Assembly (NCBI RefSeq): GCF_034480035.2
Contig: NZ_CP118753.2
Location: 1,707,426-1,771,425, forward strand
DNA length: 64,000 nt
Reading direction: 5' to 3'
From: Methanosphaera sp. ISO3-F5
GTDB lineage: Archaea; Methanobacteriota; Methanobacteria; Methanobacteriales; Methanobacteriaceae
Numbering within the stretch: position 1 is the stretch's first letter; the number at the start of each line of letters is the position of its first letter. The position numbers were made by a program, and so were the translations under genes. Below are positions 6,853 to 42,323 of this stretch, one piece after another. Below the pieces are notes generated by a model. That model was not told where the DNA came from and searched no databases. It saw only the letters and a program-made list of their open reading frames with translations.

Positions 6853-6926
<74 letters not shown>

Positions 6927-21121: not shown

Positions 21122-21367
21122 CTAAAATATTACATGCCCTTTAGGATTATATCTTTTCAACCATCTGATATCTAATCCTATGTCTAAGTATAAGTAATCG
21201 GTTATTCCTAATTTTTGTGAGAAATCAAAATCAGGATCATCTGATAAATCATAATGACAATCTTTGATAGATTCATAATCTATTGGAATTCCATCATAAT
21301 ATCCATCAATGAATCGTTGCCATTCTATTTTTTCTTCTTCAGTCATATCATCAGATTCGAATGTCAT
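21122..21367 (-). CDS. Small acidic protein, paralogue of the protein at 29869-30087
   Basis: 81 residues. The family is not recognised. The ATG at 21367 follows GGTGAT by three bases. The C-terminal 40 residues (SDDPDFDFSQKLGITDYLYLD, then GLDIRWLKR and NPKGHVIF) are nearly identical to those of a second protein at 30 kb, while the N-terminal half diverges. The protein is acidic, lacks membrane segments and should be cytoplasmic. The stop codon of an upstream membrane-protein gene lies only 4 bases before this start, so the two are translationally linked; at the 30 kb locus the partner is complete, here it is truncated. The gene is thus the second cistron of a broken pair. Confidence 0.7.
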   Translation of the reverse strand: MTFESDDMTEEEKIEWQRFIDGYYDGIPIDYESIKDCHYDLSDDPDFDFSQKLGITDYLYLDIGLDIRWLKRYNPKGHVIF

Positions 21368-21527: not shown

Positions 21528-21720
21528 TTATTTGTTTATTATTATTAATAAACATTGTATATAAAAATTTCAGTTTTATTAGATATATATTTTTCTATAT
21601 GACTACTTTTTTTATTATGACTTTATTTGATAGTGTCAACACTTGTGGGTATGAATTTCATATTACAATATAGTTACAAAAGTATGAAGTTAAATTTGAT
21701 GTTATAAATTTGTTTTTTAT

Positions 21721-21735
21721 CGCCCCTTGTGGGCG
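21721..21735 (+). other. GC-rich stem-loop in the IS leader
   Basis: CGCCC pairs with GGGCG across a 5-base loop. It lies between the left end of the element and the transposase start, in otherwise very AT-rich DNA. A hairpin here could limit transposase translation from outside transcripts, as known for several IS elements; that role is inferred. Confidence 0.4.
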
Positions 21736-21793
21736 TGCTTCAAAAAATAAGTGATAATTAGGTTTATATAGTAAAAAGGAGAGATATTATATT

Positions 21794-22999
21794 ATGAAAT
21801 CCCAAAATACCTCTCCTATTAATAATTATGACGACAAACAATATAAACTTGACGATTATTTTGATGAACTACCTAAGCAATGTAGCCGAAAAGAATATAT
21901 AGAAGATAAAATTGAAAAATTAAATTCCAATTTAACGGTCTTTAAACTTAATGATACGTATCATTTAAAACAGAAACATGTTTATTGTCCTGAATGTTAT
22001 TCTAAAGATATAAATGAAAAAGGATATTACTCTAGAGGAATATTATTAATGGATTATGGTCTTGTTGATTGTAAAATTAAACGATACAAATGTAAACATT
22101 GTGGAAACGATTTTTCAGCAGATATTTCTTCTATTGTAAGACCTAATTTTACAGTATCAAATGAAGTATTAGACATTGTAGAAACAATTTACTCAATTGA
22201 CTTCACAAGTGTCAGAAAAATCAGAGAATTCTTTGAAAAAGTTCATGGAATTAAGATATCCCATCAAGAAATTCAAGACATCTTAGTCGATTATCATATT
22301 CATTTTAATCCAAATATTAAAGAATATTCAGGATATTATGCATTTGATGCTTTATGGATAAAAATAAAAGAAATCAGTGATAAATACGTGTTTTTATTAG
22401 CATTAGTTGATGTGTGTCATGATACTATTGTAGCTTATAAAGTTGTTGAACATGAAACAGAAGAAGAAGTACTAAAATTTCTCAAAGAAGCCACATCAAA
22501 TCAAGAACGAAAAGCCATTACAACAGACTTAAAACCCGAATACATGTCTCCCATCAATGCTTTAGGATTTAAACATCAATTTTGTAAATTCCATTTTAAA
22601 CAAAATAACAATAGAATTATCAGAAAATATGTTAAAGATAACAATCTCCCTGAAGAAAAAATAAAAGAATATAAAAAGTTTTTACCAGAATTATATGAAA
22701 TATATGATGTAAAAACTCAAACAGAAGTAGCAAAAATCGTAAAAAACTTGAAAAAGAAAATAAATTACTTTCCCGAAGTTATTCAATACATAATTAATGA
22801 AAAATTAGCACCGTATTTTAAAAACTTAACATATTTCCTTGAAAATGCAAAAATCGAAAGCACAAGCAATATCATAGAAAGAATATTTGAAGATCTTGCT
22901 CCAAAGCATGTGAAAAAATGTTATAAAACTATAAAAGGATTTTTATCAAGATTTAACTTAAAATTAAAGCGATGGGATGAGAGAAATGCGATTTACTGA
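21794..22999 (+). CDS. DDE transposase with N-terminal zinc site
   Basis: 401 residues. An N-terminal pair of cysteine motifs (CPEC about residue 73 and CKHC about residue 103) forms a zinc ribbon-like DNA-binding part. The catalytic triad is D185 in YYAFDALWIK, D245 in AITTDLKPEY and E362 in SNIIERIF, with a His/Cys-containing FCKFHFKQNNN segment after the second Asp. The order resembles IS6/IS240-type DDE domains with a helical insertion before the Glu, as in ISM1-like elements. GGAGAG lies 7 bases before the ATG. It is the only gene of a complete element with intact ends, so activity is possible. Confidence 0.85.
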   Translation: MKSQNTSPINNYDDKQYKLDDYFDELPKQCSRKEYIEDKIEKLNSNLTVFKLNDTYHLKQKHVYCPECYSKDINEKGYYSRGILLMDYGLVDCKIKRYKCKHCGNDFSADISSIVRPNFTVSNEVLDIVETIYSIDFTSVRKIREFFEKVHGIKISHQEIQDILVDYHIHFNPNIKEYSGYYAFDALWIKIKEISDKYVFLLALVDVCHDTIVAYKVVEHETEEEVLKFLKEATSNQERKAITTDLKPEYMSPINALGFKHQFCKFHFKQNNNRIIRKYVKDNNLPEEKIKEYKKFLPELYEIYDVKTQTEVAKIVKNLKKKINYFPEVIQYIINEKLAPYFKNLTYFLENAKIESTSNIIERIFEDLAPKHVKKCYKTIKGFLSRFNLKLKRWDERNAIY

Positions 23000-23084
23000 A
23001 ATGATGTTAAAATACCCACACATCTTGACACCACCCTTTATTTTACACACCTAAAGTATATATATGATAACAAATATATAGTAT

Positions 23085-23390
23085 AATTACTATAATATAG
23101 ATTATTAAATAGCACTATCTTTTATCAAGAAAAGTAGTGTATGTAATTAAAGATAATAAAGAAGAAATATGTTACTTACAAGGGAATATAACATGTTCCC
23201 TGTTATATTTCTTTGTAGTACTACTCGTAGTACAATATATTTCTTTATTACAATGTTAGAGGACGCACTCTAGAATAAATAATTCTAGCAATCGGCTTGC
23301 TAACACAGATAAATCACACTATTAATAAAAAAATAGTACTTGATTTATCAATTATATTCAAATACATGTTTTATATATGGAGGAAATATA
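23085..23390 (+). promoter_or_regulatory. Long multi-hairpin leader of tuf
   Basis: A TATA-like stretch (AAAGTATATATAT, about 23053-23065) would start a transcript near 23090, leaving about 300 untranslated bases. They contain a series of stems: CACTA-CTTTT with AAAAG-TAGTG (23113-23139); AAGAAATAT with ATATTTCTT (23162-23170, 23205-23213) enclosing AGGGAA/TTCCCT; GTACTAC/GTAGTAC (23218-23233); two alternatives, CTAGAAT/ATTCTAG (23270-23288) and TAGCAA/TTGCTA (23286-23302), which overlap; and a 15-pair stem, GATAAATCA-ACTATT with AATAGT-TGATTTATC (23308-23349), ending 40 bases before the start codon. The overlapping stems could act as a switch. It matches no riboswitch that I recognise. Confidence 0.55.
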
Positions 23391-24630
<1,240 letters not shown>

Positions 24631-24632
<2 letters not shown>

Positions 24633-34693: not shown

Positions 34694-35480
34694 ACATTTA
34701 AACCATCTATATATCATTATGTAATGGGATATGGAAAATGTATCTTAAAATGAGTAACTTAACAATATACACAGAATTAATCTTTAATAACGAATCATTA
34801 CGTATAACATTCATTCAATAAAAAACATGCAATCGTGAAAACAATAAAAAAAGCTGAACAATATCCTACAACAAGGTAACAGATAAAACATCATTCCCTA
34901 TTACAAAACAGGACTTGTAATAACATTGGAAAAAGTTAATGCTCCAATGGTAAAAAATTTCAAGACATAAATTGATCAAACAAACATCCTTTTAATGGTG
35001 TAATAGGGATTAATAAAAAAAGGCAAATCATAATACTAAATAATTAAAAGAGCATACAAATTAACCTTTTCATATCCAGTAATGTATGATACAATTTATA
35101 CAATAAAACAAAACACGATAATGAAGTTCAATAAAAATCATCCTCTCCATTAATGGTTAGAAAATTTTTCAACCATTTATATATACTTTTTTTTTTAACA
35201 TGATGTAATGTTTTATACGCTCATTTAATCTAAAAACAATCGTAATAACTTTTAAAAATAGATATAATCAAAAATTTTGTAATAAGAGAATTTATCAAAA
35301 AAATAATTTATTAATACAAAAAATAAAAAATCATAATTCTTTAATTATAATAATAATATAAAATTTATAAAAAATATATTTATTTGAAAAATAAAAATAT
35401 ATAATATCTTTTCAAATAATAAAAAATAAAAATCAAACAAATTTGAAAAGACAAATAAAACCGTAGAAGGCAATACGAAA
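34694..35480. other. Gap between two adhesin genes with adhesin debris
   Basis: About 790 bases with no intact gene. The first part holds decayed adhesin sequence (see the pseudogene entry). The second part (35120-35480) is over 80% A+T and should hold the promoter of the 2280-residue adhesin. A sequence CCATTTATATATAC at about 35174-35187 has the form of a TATA box, but it lies 300 bases from the start codon. Confidence 0.5.
34867..35110 (+). pseudogene. Decayed C-terminal end of an adhesin-like gene
   Basis: Translation at 34867-34917 reads YNKVTDKTSFPITKQDL and then stops. Shifting the frame at that point gives LVITLEKVNAPMVKNFKT (34914-34968). Together they match the junction of two Ig-like repeats of the downstream adhesin (YNKVTKKATFKVVKQDLVLTV). 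At 35052-35105 the frame AYKLTFSYPVMYDTIYTI matches the very end of that adhesin (AYKLTLAYPGNDRYNAYSK). So this is the frameshifted, partly deleted end of a third ALP gene between two live ones. Confidence 0.7.
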
Positions 35481-38400
35481 ATGTTTAAACATAACACAAA
35501 AACATTTTTATTACTTACATTAATATTCGTGACATTACTCGGAGTGTCAGCTGCCACAGCAGCCACAATAGACAACAACGCAACTGACACAACAAGCAAT
35601 GCACAGGAAGCTGTATCACAAGCAGCAGATACTGTTAGTGATAATAGCATCCCAACAACAACCGTGAGTAATAAAGAAATAAACAAAAACACGCAAAATA
35701 ATGTAAAAACAGAAGGCGAAGGCACATTCGCAGACCTTGCAACAGATATCACTGGTAGTGAGGTTACACTCACAAAAGATTATGTACAAGGCCAAGATGA
35801 AACTAATATTACTATAACAGAAGACAAAATAATTGATGGAAATGGACATAGTATCACAGCATCCAATGGTATTTTTATAATTGATACTGGAATCACTTTT
35901 ACTTTGAAAAATACAATAATATATTCAGAATATAGTCCTTCAACAGGTTATCCTCAGGTTTATTTCTCGGATTTATATAATAAGGGAAATCTTGTATTAG
36001 AGAATGTTACATTTTCTTATATTAAGCAGTGGGATGAAAGGACTTATGGATATCCAATTAATATGGCTTCAAACTCTAAACTTGATGTAAAAGATTCTTT
36101 ATTCACAGGATATTCTACTAATGGTGCTATAATATATGCTTATAATCCTGGAGTTTCAATTAAAGTGGATAATTCACTTTTTACAAATTTCAATACTGCA
36201 AATGCTGCTATTTATATGAGAACAAGTAATAGTAATTTAACTCTTACTAATTCTAATTTCACAAATGCTGGAGCAAGTGAAGGAAATGGAATTAATTATG
36301 GTGGAGCTTTATACCTGAATAATGTTAATCAAAATGCATTAATAGAAAATTGTTTATTTGAAAATATCACTTCTAATACTCGTGGAGCTGCAATGTATAT
36401 ATCAGGTAACACAACAGTTAAAAGTTCAACATTCAAAAACCTCAAACAAATAAGTGCAAGCTATAATGGGGGAGCTATCTGGTTAAATGCAGCAAATACT
36501 CAATTGTACTTAGAAGATAATACTATGGAAAACATTATTTCAAATAGTGCAAATGTTTACGTTAATAATGGTAAAATTAATTCAACATTAAAACTTACTG
36601 GAGAAAATGTAACTGTTGATCAGGAATCTTCTGTATCCTTAACATGGAATCTTACTGATGACAATGGTAATAGTATTGACTTTAAATCTTCACCATTTAT
36701 TGTAAAAATTAATGATGAAACAGTTCCACATACAATGGCAAATGGTTCAATTACAGTATCCTTTGATGCAAGTATGGATCCTGGAGTTTATCCGATATCA
36801 ATTGAGTATGATGATTCAAGGATACTAAGTGATTTAACAGTTCCGGAAACATCATTAACCATAAAAGATATTGGATTATTAAAATATGCTAATATAACAA
36901 AAGCATTAGAAGAAGCAACAAGTGATAGTATAACAGTTGATGGTCCTGTTTTCAGAAGTTCTGCTGAAGATAGTATCGTAATCAGTAAACCAATTACCAT
37001 AGACTTCAAAGGTAACACAATCAATGCAAAAACGGGTAAAGTATTTGACATTAATAATAGTGCAAAAGTAACAATTAAAAATGCTATAATCACTAATGTA
37101 GGCAATCCTAGGGTATCTATTTCTAATAGTGAAGGTAGAATAGCAAATATTACTGGTACTGGTACTGATGTAACATTTGAAAATGTAACATTTGAAAATA
37201 ATAGAGCACCGAACTATTCTTCATCAGCTTATGGAAGTTTCATATTTGTATTCACTGACAATTCAGTAAATTTAAAAAATTGTACTGTGACTAATTGTTC
37301 AGGTTCTTTCATAAACAATGTTAATGCAACAGTAACAATAGATGAATCTACCTTTGATAACAATAATTTATATGAAGGATATAGCGCAAGTTGGAATGCT
37401 TTAATAGCAAACGGTGGAAAATTAGATATAAATAATTCTAAATTCACAAACAACAGGGTTAACATAGCAGTAATACGTAGTCAATCAAATACATTACCAT
37501 CAAGCGCTTATGGTGCTTATATTACTTACAGTAACTCACCATTAACTATAGAAAACACATTATTTGAAAATAATTATGCATCAAGTGGAAGAGGAGCAGC
37601 AGTAAACACACATAATGACACAACCATTAAAAATTCAACATTCATATTTAATTCACAAGGATCATCCAATGAGGGTGGAGCAATATTATCTGAAGATGGT
37701 AATTTAGAAATAGATAGCTGTATATTTGTAAACAACACTGCAAAATACAGTGAATCATGGAGTGGAACTATAACTGTTGGGGAAGGAACAGCAATAGCAA
37801 ATGAAAAAGGTAACCTCAACATTAAAAACTCAATAATCATATCAAACGTTACACAAGCCAGTGCTATTTACAACAAAGCAAGTGATGTAGAAGTAATGGC
37901 AAATGGTAATTATTGGGGAACAAATAATCCTGAAGGAAGATATGCTTCTAAATCTGGTGCAGATGAAATCACAGTAGATAACTGGGTAATACTTAACATC
38001 ACTGTCGACCCAGAAGAAAACATAAACTATAATGATGAAATAAACGTAAAAACAACACTCAACCAAGTAACTGATGGAACAACAATAACTACTCTGGAAG
38101 GAACACTTCCTGATTATGGAGAAGTAACATTCACAGCAAAAGGTGGAGAAATCACAGAAACAACAGTAGAGATGAAAGATGGACAAGCAACAACAAAAAT
38201 GAAAGTAACAAACAGTCCATTCACAATAACTGCAACATACCCTAACACAGAAGCAGTATACAATGGCGAAGCAACAATGCCAGAACCATTAGTCATCACA
38301 TTAAATGATGGAAACTGGACATACTACTTCAACGAAGAAGATGGAACAGTAAAAACAGACATAGTAGTGCCAAACAGTGAACTAAGATTTGAAGGAGAAT

Positions 38401-41400
38401 TCAATAATCGTGACATGGTAATAACAATACCATTAAACTTAACCACAGCAGAAGAACAAGCAATACTAAACAATTGTACAATAACAGTAACAGAAAAAGC
38501 ATATGGTACACTAATCAAAGACATTAAAATGGAAGCAACAGACTACACAGATGCATTAATCACACTCGAAAACACAGAAAACGTAACTATAGAAAACAAT
38601 AAACTAACAATAACTAACAATGATGAAAAACAATTAACCCGTGCTATTAACGTAAATCGTGGAGAAAATAATATTATAAGAAACAACACTATTAATGTTG
38701 TAGGTCCAGAGGAAGACATTGTATATGCAGGAGACAGTATGAGTGATGTAAGCATTATTTATACCGCTGCAATCAGTGCAAACAACAGTAAAGCAATAAT
38801 CATCGACTCAAACAGTATAACAACAACTAAAAATGATAAACCGGTAACAACATATGGAACTATCTATGGTGTATATGTAACTGGAGATACAGAAAATCTG
38901 GGTAGTGATATTCAAATAATTAACAATGAAATCACAACAACAGGTGATGTTTACGTTTATGGTATAATTATAAACTCTATTGAAGAAGCAATAATTGATA
39001 ACAATACAATTAAAACAACTGGTGAAACATATGCAAATGGTATTCAATTAGGATCATGTGCTAGTTCAACCGTAAGTAACAATAACATAACAGTAAAAGG
39101 TAACGAATTTGCTTATGGTATATTAAACAATGGAGCAATGGACTATGACACTTATGAAATATATCTTGCAGATAGTAATATTATCACTAACAATGTAATA
39201 AATGCAGAATCTAAAAATGCTCAAGGTATTCAAATTTTCGTGGGTGAATATAATAAAGTTACATATAACAATATTACAATTAATGCAGATAATGGTGTAG
39301 GAATTGGTATGGCCGATGCTTCATATGGTGACATTTCATACAACAATATTGAAGTGACTGCTACAATGGAAACTCCTGCAGGTGTAGGAGATGCAATTAA
39401 ATTTGATACAACCGGAGTAAAAGTACAACAATCTAGTCAACAATTGCATTCAGCAAACTACAATGAAATAAAATTTAACAACATAACAGTTGAAGCTCCT
39501 AATGAAGCAATCCCCGCAGTTAATGTAACAATGAGAAGTACAATTGTTGATAACTACCTAGTTTCACCAATGGGAATGGGTAATTCCGCAGTACTTAACA
39601 CAGCATATTATGGAACAACAATTGAAGATAATAGACCTATATCCGTATCCATAAATTATGATATACTTAATGATGTTGAAGGTAAAGTAGCTATAGAATT
39701 ATCAGTTCTTGATGAAAAAGGAAATGAAATAGAATCACTAGAAATATTATTAACTTCAGATGATTTACCAAATACTAAAGTAAAATCAGGTAAAGTATTC
39801 AAAGACACTACATTAAAACCAGGCGAATACAACATAACAGCTAAATTTGATGGAAACAAAGCATACCAACCAGCAGAAACAGAAATAATCTTAACAGTAA
39901 TAGAAGATCCAAACAAAACAATCGAAGAATTAAACGACACAATAAAAGAATTAAACAATAACATCACAGACTTAAACAACAACATTTCTAAAGCAGAAGA
40001 AAAAATAGCAGAACTCACACAGAATAACACTGAGTTAGCAGATAATCTTACAGCTGCTAATAATAAGATTGAGGAGCTTACTCAGAATAACACAGCTTTA
40101 AATGATAAATTAGATCAAGCTAATCAGAACATAACTGAATTGGCTGGTAATCTTTCAGCTGCTAATGCTAAGATTGATGAACTCACACAGAATAACACTG
40201 AGTTAGCAGGTAATCTTTCAGCTGCTAATAATAAGATTGGGGAGCTTACTCAGAATAACACAGCTTTAAATGAGAAGTTAGGTCAAGCTAATCAGAACAT
40301 AACTGAATTGGCTGGTAATCTTTCAGCTGCTAATGCTAAGATTGATGAACTCACACAGAATAACACTGAGTTAGCAGGTAATCTTTCAGCTGCTAATAAT
40401 AAGATTGGGGAGCTTACTCAGAATAACACAGCTTTAAATGAGAAGTTAGGTCAAGCTAATCAGAACATAACTGAATTGGCTGGTAATCTTACTGATGCTA
40501 ATGCTAAGATTGATGAGCTTACTCAGAATAACACTGAGTTAGCAGGTAATCTTTCAGCTGCTAATGATAAAATTAATGAACTTGTCCAAAATAACACACA
40601 ATTAAATGATAAACTCAACGAAACTAATAACAAACTGGATGAAGCTAACCAAAAAATAGTTGACTTAAACAGTACTAACAAAGAATTAGCAGATAATTTA
40701 ACCAAAGCACAGGAAGACATTAATGATCTAACACAGGCAAACAATAATTTAACCAAAGAATTAAATGATACTAATGCTAAATTGGACGAAGCAAACAGTA
40801 AAGTTGATAATTTAACAGATGCTAATGATAAGTTATCTGATGATGTGGCTGCTGCTAATAAGAAAGTTGATGATTTAAGTAAAGCTAACAGTGACTTAAA
40901 CAACCAATTAGCTGATACCAATAAGAAACTTGACGATGCAAATGCTAAAGTTGATAATTTAACAGATGCTAATGATAAGTTATCTGATGATGTGGCCGCT
41001 GCTAACAAGAAAGCAGATGACCTAGCAAGTGCTAATGATAATCTTACTAAACAATTAAACGAAACCAACAAAAAATTTGACGACCTTGCAAAATCAGTAG
41101 ACAGCCTAGCAAAACAGTTAAATGACACTCAAAACAAAGTCAACGACTTAACTAAAGAAGTAGAAGATAAGGATAAAATTATCGAAGATTTAACAGCTAA
41201 GAAAGATACTAAAGTAACAGTAGGTAAAGTTAACACTACAAGCATTGGAAGCAGTGTTGTAATAACTGGTAAAGTAACTGATGCAAGTGGTGCTGCTCTT
41301 AATAACATGCCGGTCAGCATAAAAATTAATGCTGCATCCACTAAGGTAGTTACAAGTGCTAATGGTGTATACAAGTACACTACAACTGCATGGAATATTG

Positions 41401-42323
41401 GAACTAATAATGTAACAGTATCATCCATTGCTAATGATAAGTACACCAGCAGTAGTGCTAAGACCACATTCAAAGTTAACAAGGCAACTCCAAAAATTAA
41501 TATTGATGCTGTAAGTTCTGTCAGATTCAAGGACAAAGTAACAGTAACTGGTACTTTCACTGATGCTAATGGTAAAGTATTATCTGGTGTTAAATTAACA
41601 GTTAAAGTTAACGGCAAATCTGCTAGTGTAAAAACTGCTAAGGATGGTTCATTCAAGTACACTACTACTGCAACAAGTATGGGTACAAACAATGTAACAG
41701 TAACTTATGCTGGTAACACCAAATACAATAAGGTTACCAAAAAGGCAACATTCAAAGTTGTTAAACAGGATCTTGTATTAACAGTTGACAGGGTGGCTGC
41801 TTCTGTTAAGTTCAAGGATGATCTTGCAATCAGTGGTAAACTTGTTGATGGTAATGGTAAAGCAGTGATGAACACTCAGGTAACTATTAAGATCAATGAT
41901 AAAACATACAAGGCAAAAACAGATAAGAACGGTTTATATGTTCTTAAGACAAGAGCTACCATTATGGGTGCTAACAATGTAGTTGCTAGTTATGCTGGTA
42001 ATGCTAAGTATAATAAGGCAAGTGCTAAAACTTCATTTAATGTTGCAAAACAGGATTTACTCATCACATTTGATGAAGTTAAATATGCAAATGGTAAAGT
42101 TACTGTTAAAGGTACTTTTATTGACCGTAATAAACGTCCTCTTATGAACAGTCTTACAAGGGTAACATTGAATGGTAAACAGGGAACAGCTAAGACAAAC
42201 AATAAAGGTACATTCACTTACACTACTAAGGCAAATAAGGGAGCTTACAAGCTCACATTAGCTTATCCTGGTAATGATCGTTACAATGCTTACAGTAAGA
42301 CCAGTACTATATCCGTAGCTTAA
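35481..42323 (+). CDS. Giant adhesin-like protein: beta-helices, coiled-coil stalk, Ig-like repeats
   Basis: 2280 residues. A signal peptide (core FLLLTLIFVTLLGVSAATAA) is followed by a Thr/Asn-rich linker; beta-helix segments with 'NNNxxxGGAIY'-like and 'FENN' repeats (about 70-830); an Ig-like part (about 840-1000); a second beta-helix (about 1010-1370); another Ig-like domain (about 1385-1475); a coiled coil of about 430 residues (1477-1910) made largely of QNNTELAGNLSAAN-type repeats; and four C-terminal Ig-like repeats ending in SKTSTISVA. The stalk contains exact 56-residue repeats. Potential N-glycosylation sites are very dense. It should be secreted and probably extends far from the pseudomurein wall. 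The ligand is unknown and no known anchor was seen. Start ATG at 35481 after GTAGAAGGCAATACGAA. Confidence 0.86.
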   Translation: MFKHNTKTFLLLTLIFVTLLGVSAATAATIDNNATDTTSNAQEAVSQAADTVSDNSIPTTTVSNKEINKNTQNNVKTEGEGTFADLATDITGSEVTLTKDYVQGQDETNITITEDKIIDGNGHSITASNGIFIIDTGITFTLKNTIIYSEYSPSTGYPQVYFSDLYNKGNLVLENVTFSYIKQWDERTYGYPINMASNSKLDVKDSLFTGYSTNGAIIYAYNPGVSIKVDNSLFTNFNTANAAIYMRTSNSNLTLTNSNFTNAGASEGNGINYGGALYLNNVNQNALIENCLFENITSNTRGAAMYISGNTTVKSSTFKNLKQISASYNGGAIWLNAANTQLYLEDNTMENIISNSANVYVNNGKINSTLKLTGENVTVDQESSVSLTWNLTDDNGNSIDFKSSPFIVKINDETVPHTMANGSITVSFDASMDPGVYPISIEYDDSRILSDLTVPETSLTIKDIGLLKYANITKALEEATSDSITVDGPVFRSSAEDSIVISKPITIDFKGNTINAKTGKVFDINNSAKVTIKNAIITNVGNPRVSISNSEGRIANITGTGTDVTFENVTFENNRAPNYSSSAYGSFIFVFTDNSVNLKNCTVTNCSGSFINNVNATVTIDESTFDNNNLYEGYSASWNALIANGGKLDINNSKFTNNRVNIAVIRSQSNTLPSSAYGAYITYSNSPLTIENTLFENNYASSGRGAAVNTHNDTTIKNSTFIFNSQGSSNEGGAILSEDGNLEIDSCIFVNNTAKYSESWSGTITVGEGTAIANEKGNLNIKNSIIISNVTQASAIYNKASDVEVMANGNYWGTNNPEGRYASKSGADEITVDNWVILNITVDPEENINYNDEINVKTTLNQVTDGTTITTLEGTLPDYGEVTFTAKGGEITETTVEMKDGQATTKMKVTNSPFTITATYPNTEAVYNGEATMPEPLVITLNDGNWTYYFNEEDGTVKTDIVVPNSELRFEGEFNNRDMVITIPLNLTTAEEQAILNNCTITVTEKAYGTLIKDIKMEATDYTDALITLENTENVTIENNKLTITNNDEKQLTRAINVNRGENNIIRNNTINVVGPEEDIVYAGDSMSDVSIIYTAAISANNSKAIIIDSNSITTTKNDKPVTTYGTIYGVYVTGDTENLGSDIQIINNEITTTGDVYVYGIIINSIEEAIIDNNTIKTTGETYANGIQLGSCASSTVSNNNITVKGNEFAYGILNNGAMDYDTYEIYLADSNIITNNVINAESKNAQGIQIFVGEYNKVTYNNITINADNGVGIGMADASYGDISYNNIEVTATMETPAGVGDAIKFDTTGVKVQQSSQQLHSANYNEIKFNNITVEAPNEAIPAVNVTMRSTIVDNYLVSPMGMGNSAVLNTAYYGTTIEDNRPISVSINYDILNDVEGKVAIELSVLDEKGNEIESLEILLTSDDLPNTKVKSGKVFKDTTLKPGEYNITAKFDGNKAYQPAETEIILTVIEDPNKTIEELNDTIKELNNNITDLNNNISKAEEKIAELTQNNTELADNLTAANNKIEELTQNNTALNDKLDQANQNITELAGNLSAANAKIDELTQNNTELAGNLSAANNKIGELTQNNTALNEKLGQANQNITELAGNLSAANAKIDELTQNNTELAGNLSAANNKIGELTQNNTALNEKLGQANQNITELAGNLTDANAKIDELTQNNTELAGNLSAANDKINELVQNNTQLNDKLNETNNKLDEANQKIVDLNSTNKELADNLTKAQEDINDLTQANNNLTKELNDTNAKLDEANSKVDNLTDANDKLSDDVAAANKKVDDLSKANSDLNNQLADTNKKLDDANAKVDNLTDANDKLSDDVAAANKKADDLASANDNLTKQLNETNKKFDDLAKSVDSLAKQLNDTQNKVNDLTKEVEDKDKIIEDLTAKKDTKVTVGKVNTTSIGSSVVITGKVTDASGAALNNMPVSIKINAASTKVVTSANGVYKYTTTAWNIGTNNVTVSSIANDKYTSSSAKTTFKVNKATPKINIDAVSSVRFKDKVTVTGTFTDANGKVLSGVKLTVKVNGKSASVKTAKDGSFKYTTTATSMGTNNVTVTYAGNTKYNKVTKKATFKVVKQDLVLTVDRVAASVKFKDDLAISGKLVDGNGKAVMNTQVTIKINDKTYKAKTDKNGLYVLKTRATIMGANNVVASYAGNAKYNKASAKTSFNVAKQDLLITFDEVKYANGKVTVKGTFIDRNKRPLMNSLTRVTLNGKQGTAKTNNKGTFTYTTKANKGAYKLTLAYPGNDRYNAYSKTSTISVA
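40122..40560 (+). repeat. 168-bp tandem repeats in the stalk of the giant adhesin
   Basis: Units start at 40122, 40290 and 40458 (the last partial), each 168 bases or 56 codons, almost identical at DNA level. 56 residues are eight heptads, so copy number can change without breaking the coiled-coil register. Each unit has five N-x-S/T sites. A degenerate version precedes the first unit (40017-40121). Confidence 0.85.

Follow-up and report, generated by a model that had tools for sequence, protein, structure and literature searches.

The tuf gene of Methanosphaera sp. ISO3-F5, which encodes archaeal elongation factor 1A (EF1A), is preceded by an unusually long structured leader of 300 bases that very probably acts in cis as a regulatory element of tuf. 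The gene lies in the 64,000-nucleotide stretch of DNA that was analysed here (the window). The sequence evidence shows a conserved promoter element at the leader's 5' end, constraint on one strand, conservation, P2, P4 and P5 structure, and restriction to tuf, and this is most likely a cis-acting regulatory leader new to Rfam. The complete account, in which the 5' untranslated region (UTR) of tuf is a multi-domain RNA that controls EF1A in cis through feedback by a translation protein, is given a probability of roughly 0.55. The leader offers a concrete example on which RNA-level control in Archaea can be tested, in front of the gene for a very abundant protein, in a genus of human and ruminant gut methanogens.

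The tuf locus and its promoter

The genes along the window run in the order rpsL, rpsG, fusA, an insertion sequence, tuf and rpsJ, where rpsL, rpsG and rpsJ are what we take these genes to be from recognising their sequences. The EF1A of the window is 89-95% identical to three named Methanosphaera records, and the order fusA-tuf-rpsJ is maintained in the Methanosphaera genomes compared. The initial annotation had an insertion sequence separating tuf from fusA, and this is confirmed by 20-base imperfect terminal inverted repeats (21633-21652/23012-23031) and by a flanking 8-base duplication, CTTTATTT, at 21621-21628 and 23036-23043. The transposase ORF (21794-22999) has a weak, below cut-off match to rve as its only Pfam match. 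The element stops just upstream of the tuf promoter and leaves it unbroken, so tuf should retain its own transcription. Without an insertion sequence, the gap between fusA and tuf is 225-501 bases in 12 of the other genomes. Another Methanosphaera, G122 (L113), has a fusA-tuf distance of 1098 bases, and the same intergenic space therefore seems to carry a different insertion. An 81-residue ORF with no Pfam match lies on the minus strand between fusA and the insertion sequence of the window (21122-21367).

The promoter, which the initial annotation did not include, has the core A[AG]GTATA in 15/15 Methanosphaera genomes with an identified tuf. Its distance to the start codon is 294-371 bases in 14 genomes and 163 bases in the most divergent one, G120. 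From the usual archaeal promoter spacing, the 5' end of the tuf transcript is predicted near 23085, coinciding with the 5' edge of the structured region; no Methanosphaera start-site map was found in the open literature. Since the BRE/TATA element is conserved at the 5' end of the leader, the leader is taken to be the 5' UTR of tuf. The initial annotation also considered a small RNA gene upstream of tuf. Such a gene, or an RNA cut from the leader, would have its own promoter, and the most conserved part could be the processed RNA, but conservation is unbroken across P5, the spacer, the Shine-Dalgarno sequence and the start codon, no second conserved BRE/TATA element lies nearer to tuf in the 15 genomes, the stretch between P5 and the start codon included, and the structure is never seen apart from tuf. 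A separate small RNA is thus quite improbable.

Table 1. Positions of the tuf leader, its helices and neighbouring features in the window
Feature	Position	Strand	Remarks
Insertion sequence between fusA and tuf, 1407 bases	21629..23035	+	outside the leader
BRE/TATA promoter element TAAAGTATATATA (= TAAAGTATAT)	23052..23064	+	predicted transcription start near 23085
Structured 5' untranslated leader of tuf	23085..23390	+	fold z -7, genus-wide conservation
P0: UAAUUAC 23084-23090 / GUAAUUA 23143-23149	23084..23149	+	closes variable hairpin
P1: GUAA-N-UAAAGA 23143-23153 / UCUUUAUUAC		+	competes with P1b
P1b: GAAAUAU 23164-23170 / AUAUUUC 23237-23243	23164..23243	+	minimum-energy folds, alignment
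P2: 15-pair hairpin ACAAGGGAAUAUAAC / GUUAUAUUUCUUUGU	23178..23216	+	z -5 alone
P2alt: GGGAA 23182-23186 / UUCCC 23196-23200	23182..23200	+	excludes P2; U-rich stretch then follows
P3: small hairpin GUACUA/UAGUAC	23218..23233	+	alignment; missing in some species
P4: GUUAG-AGG-A-CG-NNCU-CUAGA...UCUAG-CAAU-CG-G-CUU-N-CUAAC	23255..23304	+	15/15 genomes
P5: 15-pair stem with conserved 1x3 internal loop	23308..23349	+	z -8.6 alone
P6: AUUAUAU 23351-23357 / AUAUAAU 23386-23392	23351..23392	+	weak, over start codon
Shine-Dalgarno GGAGG	23379..23383	+	invariant in 15/15 genomes
tuf, archaeal elongation factor 1A	23391..24632	+	Pfam GTP_EFTU and eEF1A_C

Folding strength and conservation

Positions 23085-23400 fold at -76.5 kcal/mol, compared with a mean of -47.1 (sd 4.2) for 100 dinucleotide shuffles, none of which folded as well (z -7.0). 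Cut into 213 successive tiles of 300 bases, the window has a mean z of -0.62 (sd 1.5) per tile, and the tuf leader scores from -7.0 (offset 23101) to -8.5 (offset 23091); a tile with a tRNA cluster, at 6901, is less extreme (z -4.4). Just one of the 213 tiles is more extreme than the leader. This tile, 35401-35700 (z about -9 to -10), covers the start of a gene for a 2280-residue adhesin-like protein (35481-42323), with a perfect 11-pair hairpin, UCUUUUCAAAU/AUUUGAAAAGA, at 35407-35451, 5' of the start codon.

Each of the 15 Methanosphaera genomes that yielded a tuf gene also has the leader. The full architecture is seen in 14 of these, with fold z values of -4.3 to -7.5 that no shuffle equals, and G120, the sole species with a much shortened leader, retains only the core hairpin P4. 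By DNA search the leader is found at 70-87% identity in another 12 species-level Methanosphaera genomes and also in a same-species genome, and in one more, G120, its core is found. Excluding the same-species genome, identity to the window is 0.62-0.90 from P1 to the start codon, 0.24-0.65 in the tuf-rpsJ intergenic DNA and 0.18-0.58 in the 5' part of the transcript. The leader is therefore far better conserved than adjacent non-coding DNA, and its conservation reaches the start codon. In 14/14 genomes folding is stronger for the plus than for the minus strand, and two G-U pairs of P2, which would be A-C mismatches on the opposite strand, occur unchanged in every one of these genomes, so the constraint acts on the plus-strand RNA. 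The region is AT-rich, which would favour chance folding or inverted repeats for a DNA-binding protein. The z of -7 against dinucleotide shuffles and the folding of 14 genomes argue against chance, and the strand difference and G-U pairs against a DNA palindrome, leaving these explanations hardly credible.

Over the whole leader, 98.1% of the named pairs are paired, compared with 34-47% when the partners are slid. Compensatory changes in relatives, whose absence was to count against the structure, do exist but are few: three pairs show double changes, compared with 0.9 in shuffles, and 20/500 shuffles reach three. Covariation is sparse because the leader sequence barely varies and most stems are invariant, and the pair counts lend the structure thin backing. 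Open frames occur in the leader of this strain (the longest has 40 codons), but a leader peptide is not conserved across the alignment, as gaps occur in lengths not divisible by three and start codons are not retained.

Helices, alternative pairings and the P4 pocket

The initial annotation listed at least five consecutive stems, and the fold contains more than five. In the 5' half, P0 is the weakest helix (88.8% of cells paired in 14 genomes), and P1/P1b, P2 and P3 form a junction region (23143-23252) in which P1b surrounds P2 and P3. P2 is paired in 100% of cells in 14 genomes, with one compensatory change, A-U to C-G, in the species G110, and its loop is conserved in the genus alignment. 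In 13/14 genomes the UUCCC of the P2 loop is complementary to GGGAA of P2's own 5' strand (P2alt). In G110 UCUCC stands in place of UUCCC and an upstream A is replaced by G, and five P2alt pairs remain possible. P2alt cells are 98.6% paired, without informative changes, and forcing P2alt costs 1.5-7.5 kcal/mol above the minimum in all 14 genomes. The local P2alt hairpin would form earlier than P2 during transcription. P2 does not require these loop bases, so their conservation suggests that P2alt matters. The 3' strand of P2 could also pair with the ribosome site (UUAUAUUUC with GAAAUAUAA), but about half of the species have a mismatch there.

P2alt with the U-rich stretch UUAUAUUUCUUU could end transcription early, and P2, by hiding the U-rich strand, would allow read-through. 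Such an attenuator is in keeping with a P2alt that can form in all 14 genomes, that was picked up by a terminator consensus scan, and whose UUCCC bases are kept without a role in P2, the G110 change included. However, terminator-like sites are no commoner than in shuffles and P2alt is absent in G120. The U-rich stretch is interrupted and P2alt shows no informative covariation, so attenuation is a bare possibility and an improbable one.

P2 and P2alt, neither of which was in the initial annotation, are the conserved mutually exclusive pair. A different pair had been named there, two stems that share 23286-23288 (CTAGAA...TTCTAG at 23270-23288, and TAGCAA/TTGCTA from 23286). Both exist on paper but are not conserved as alternatives: TAGCAA/TTGCTA is broken in 4/15 species, by TTACTA in G123 and G115, TTTCTA in G118 and TTTTTA in G120, and this stem is therefore probably incidental.

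P4, also new here as a conserved pocket, consists of a lower stem GUUAG/CUAAC, AGG/CUU, an A-G mismatch, CG/CG, a 4x4 loop NNCU/CAAU and an upper stem CUAGA/UCUAG. All of its cells are paired in 15/15 genomes, with double changes at two pairs. In G120, AGG/CUU is replaced by AAA/UUU, where one pair is changed on both sides and another on one side only. The internal loops (1x1, 4x4 and a single-base bulge) are nearly invariant, while the apical loop ranges in length from just a few to over 40 bases.

Several known elements were compared with P4. A mimic of the sarcin-ricin loop, the elongation factor binding site of 23S rRNA, was rejected since P4 lacks the conserved AGUACGAGAGGA motif and shares only AGAGGA with it, a string replaced by AGGGGA in G123 and G118 and by AGAAAA in G120. 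An H/ACA guide RNA was rejected as well, because the bases 3' of the P4 CUAAC vary (ACA, GAU, GCU, AAG, AUC, AAC) with no fixed ACA box. The P4 string CUAGCAAUCG resembles CUAGUAAUCG, which we take to be a universal 16S sequence near the S7 site. By a rough estimate about one match of this type in rRNA is expected by chance, and the likeness would be a weak lead.

The 15-pair stem with one asymmetric bulge ending 40 bases 5' of the start codon, as first described, corresponds to P5. In this strain it has 9 + 6 pairs around the 1x3 loop (14-15 pairs in the genus), with 96-99% of cells paired and double changes at one pair. P6 is conserved, with a z of -0.9 alone in this species and a pairing probability of 0.16-0.90 in 14 genomes. 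The tuf start codon is weakly paired. Since P6 alone is no better than shuffles, no claim of start-codon sequestration is made.

The leader could also be a ligand-free constitutive stabiliser, or a ribosome stand-by element, for the abundant tuf mRNA. tuf is normally among the most highly expressed genes, strong 5' stems together with P5 beside the ribosome site would shield the transcript from nucleases, and the Shine-Dalgarno sequence remains unpaired in the predicted fold. Stabilisation leaves the invariant unpaired bases of P4 and P5 and the conserved P2 loop unexplained, and appears unlikely.

Distribution, proposed mechanism and known systems

A covariance model of P4 was run on 139 genomes from the family and 152 from the phylum. 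It matches 15 genomes of the genus, each in a single copy on the sense strand and always before tuf; a model of P1-P3 matches 14 genomes, each once and on the sense strand. The five genomes of the genus without a match are those where tuf itself fell short of the threshold used. Outside Methanosphaera, nothing in the family or phylum sets scores above noise with the P4 model, and the Methanobrevibacter and other tuf loci have no homologue. One 23-bit P4-model match in another genome of the family has no tuf nearby and is taken as chance, as are viral contigs with the 15-base core string, whose best model score is 16 bits. No Rfam 15 family matches the leader at the gathering threshold, and none is credible at E up to 5, riboswitches included.

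Most of the other Methanobacteriaceae tuf leaders that were read look different, and those of Methanobrevibacter are much shorter. Some 40-60 bases 5' of the start codon, the leader of Methanobrevibacter tuf has its own short, conserved hairpin, AAGCTAWCATTTAAGCTT (L040:581-598, with equivalents in L036, L037, L043, L048, L050 and L057). This hairpin is unrelated to the Methanosphaera leader and is possibly another cis element.

The initial annotation proposed an autoregulatory or ligand-sensing leader. The cis-acting part is borne out by the promoter, the conservation to the start codon and the single copy before tuf; both the ligand and the direction in which control acts are what we infer. 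In the proposed mechanism, a single transcript beginning near 23085 would carry a multi-domain RNA that influences EF1A synthesis in cis. The invariant internal loops of P4, perhaps together with P5, would be the binding site for EF1A or for one of the ribosomal proteins encoded in the same cluster, and an excess of the binding protein would lower translation initiation about 90 bases downstream. P2/P2alt may serve as a co-transcriptional switch. A single copy before one gene is typical of autoregulated translation genes and not of metabolite regulons. The single copy, the one translation gene and the invariant unpaired P4 bases fit protein-binding feedback better than a metabolite riboswitch, and feedback by a translation protein is put forward tentatively as the leader's mechanism, the natural candidate ligands being EF1A and the ribosomal proteins of the adjacent gene cluster. 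The more specific idea, that archaeal EF1A responds to its own free level, or to the level of aminoacyl-tRNA, by way of a multi-domain leader with a P2/P2alt switch, is speculative and seems unlikely.

In a small-molecule or ion riboswitch, P4 would be the aptamer and P2/P2alt the switch. With invariant internal loops below an apical loop that is free to vary, P4 has the look of a binding pocket, and the exclusive pairings are near-isoenergetic. Riboswitches usually precede several genes of a pathway, however, and this leader precedes tuf only, once per genome, and matches no Rfam riboswitch even at a loose threshold, so a riboswitch is rather unlikely. The partner of the invariant P4 pocket could be sought by pull-down. 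If tuf is regulated through its leader, the supply of elongation factor would be controllable separately from the adjacent ribosomal-protein genes.

No earlier report of an archaeal tuf leader, or of an autoregulatory RNA of an archaeal translation elongation factor, was found in the open literature. In Escherichia coli, EF-Tu or S7 has been described as controlling the elongation factor gene or its operon post-transcriptionally (tufB, str operon). The bacterial gene organisation differs. With the riboswitches of Rfam 15 the leader shares its length, an invariant pocket and exclusive pairings, without a family match. L7Ae autoregulates through a k-turn in the l7ae leader (PMC5539422), which is likewise archaeal translational control by a protein on a structured leader. 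The k-turn signature, a three-base bulge followed by two G-A pairs, does not occur in the Methanosphaera leader; as read from the alignments, the 1x3 loop of P5 is followed by U-G-A in Watson-Crick pairing and not by tandem G-A. Four archaeal r-leaders, for L4, eL15 and two for S15, have been described (Eckert and Weinberg 2020, PMC7247131), in a text with no mention of Methanobacteria, Methanobrevibacter or tuf. EF1A is not among their listed ligands, and filing the tuf leader as an r-leader would be premature. It appears to resemble the r-leaders in position, specificity and structure, and they are likewise lineage-restricted structured mRNA leaders before a translation gene, for which feedback by the encoded protein is expected.
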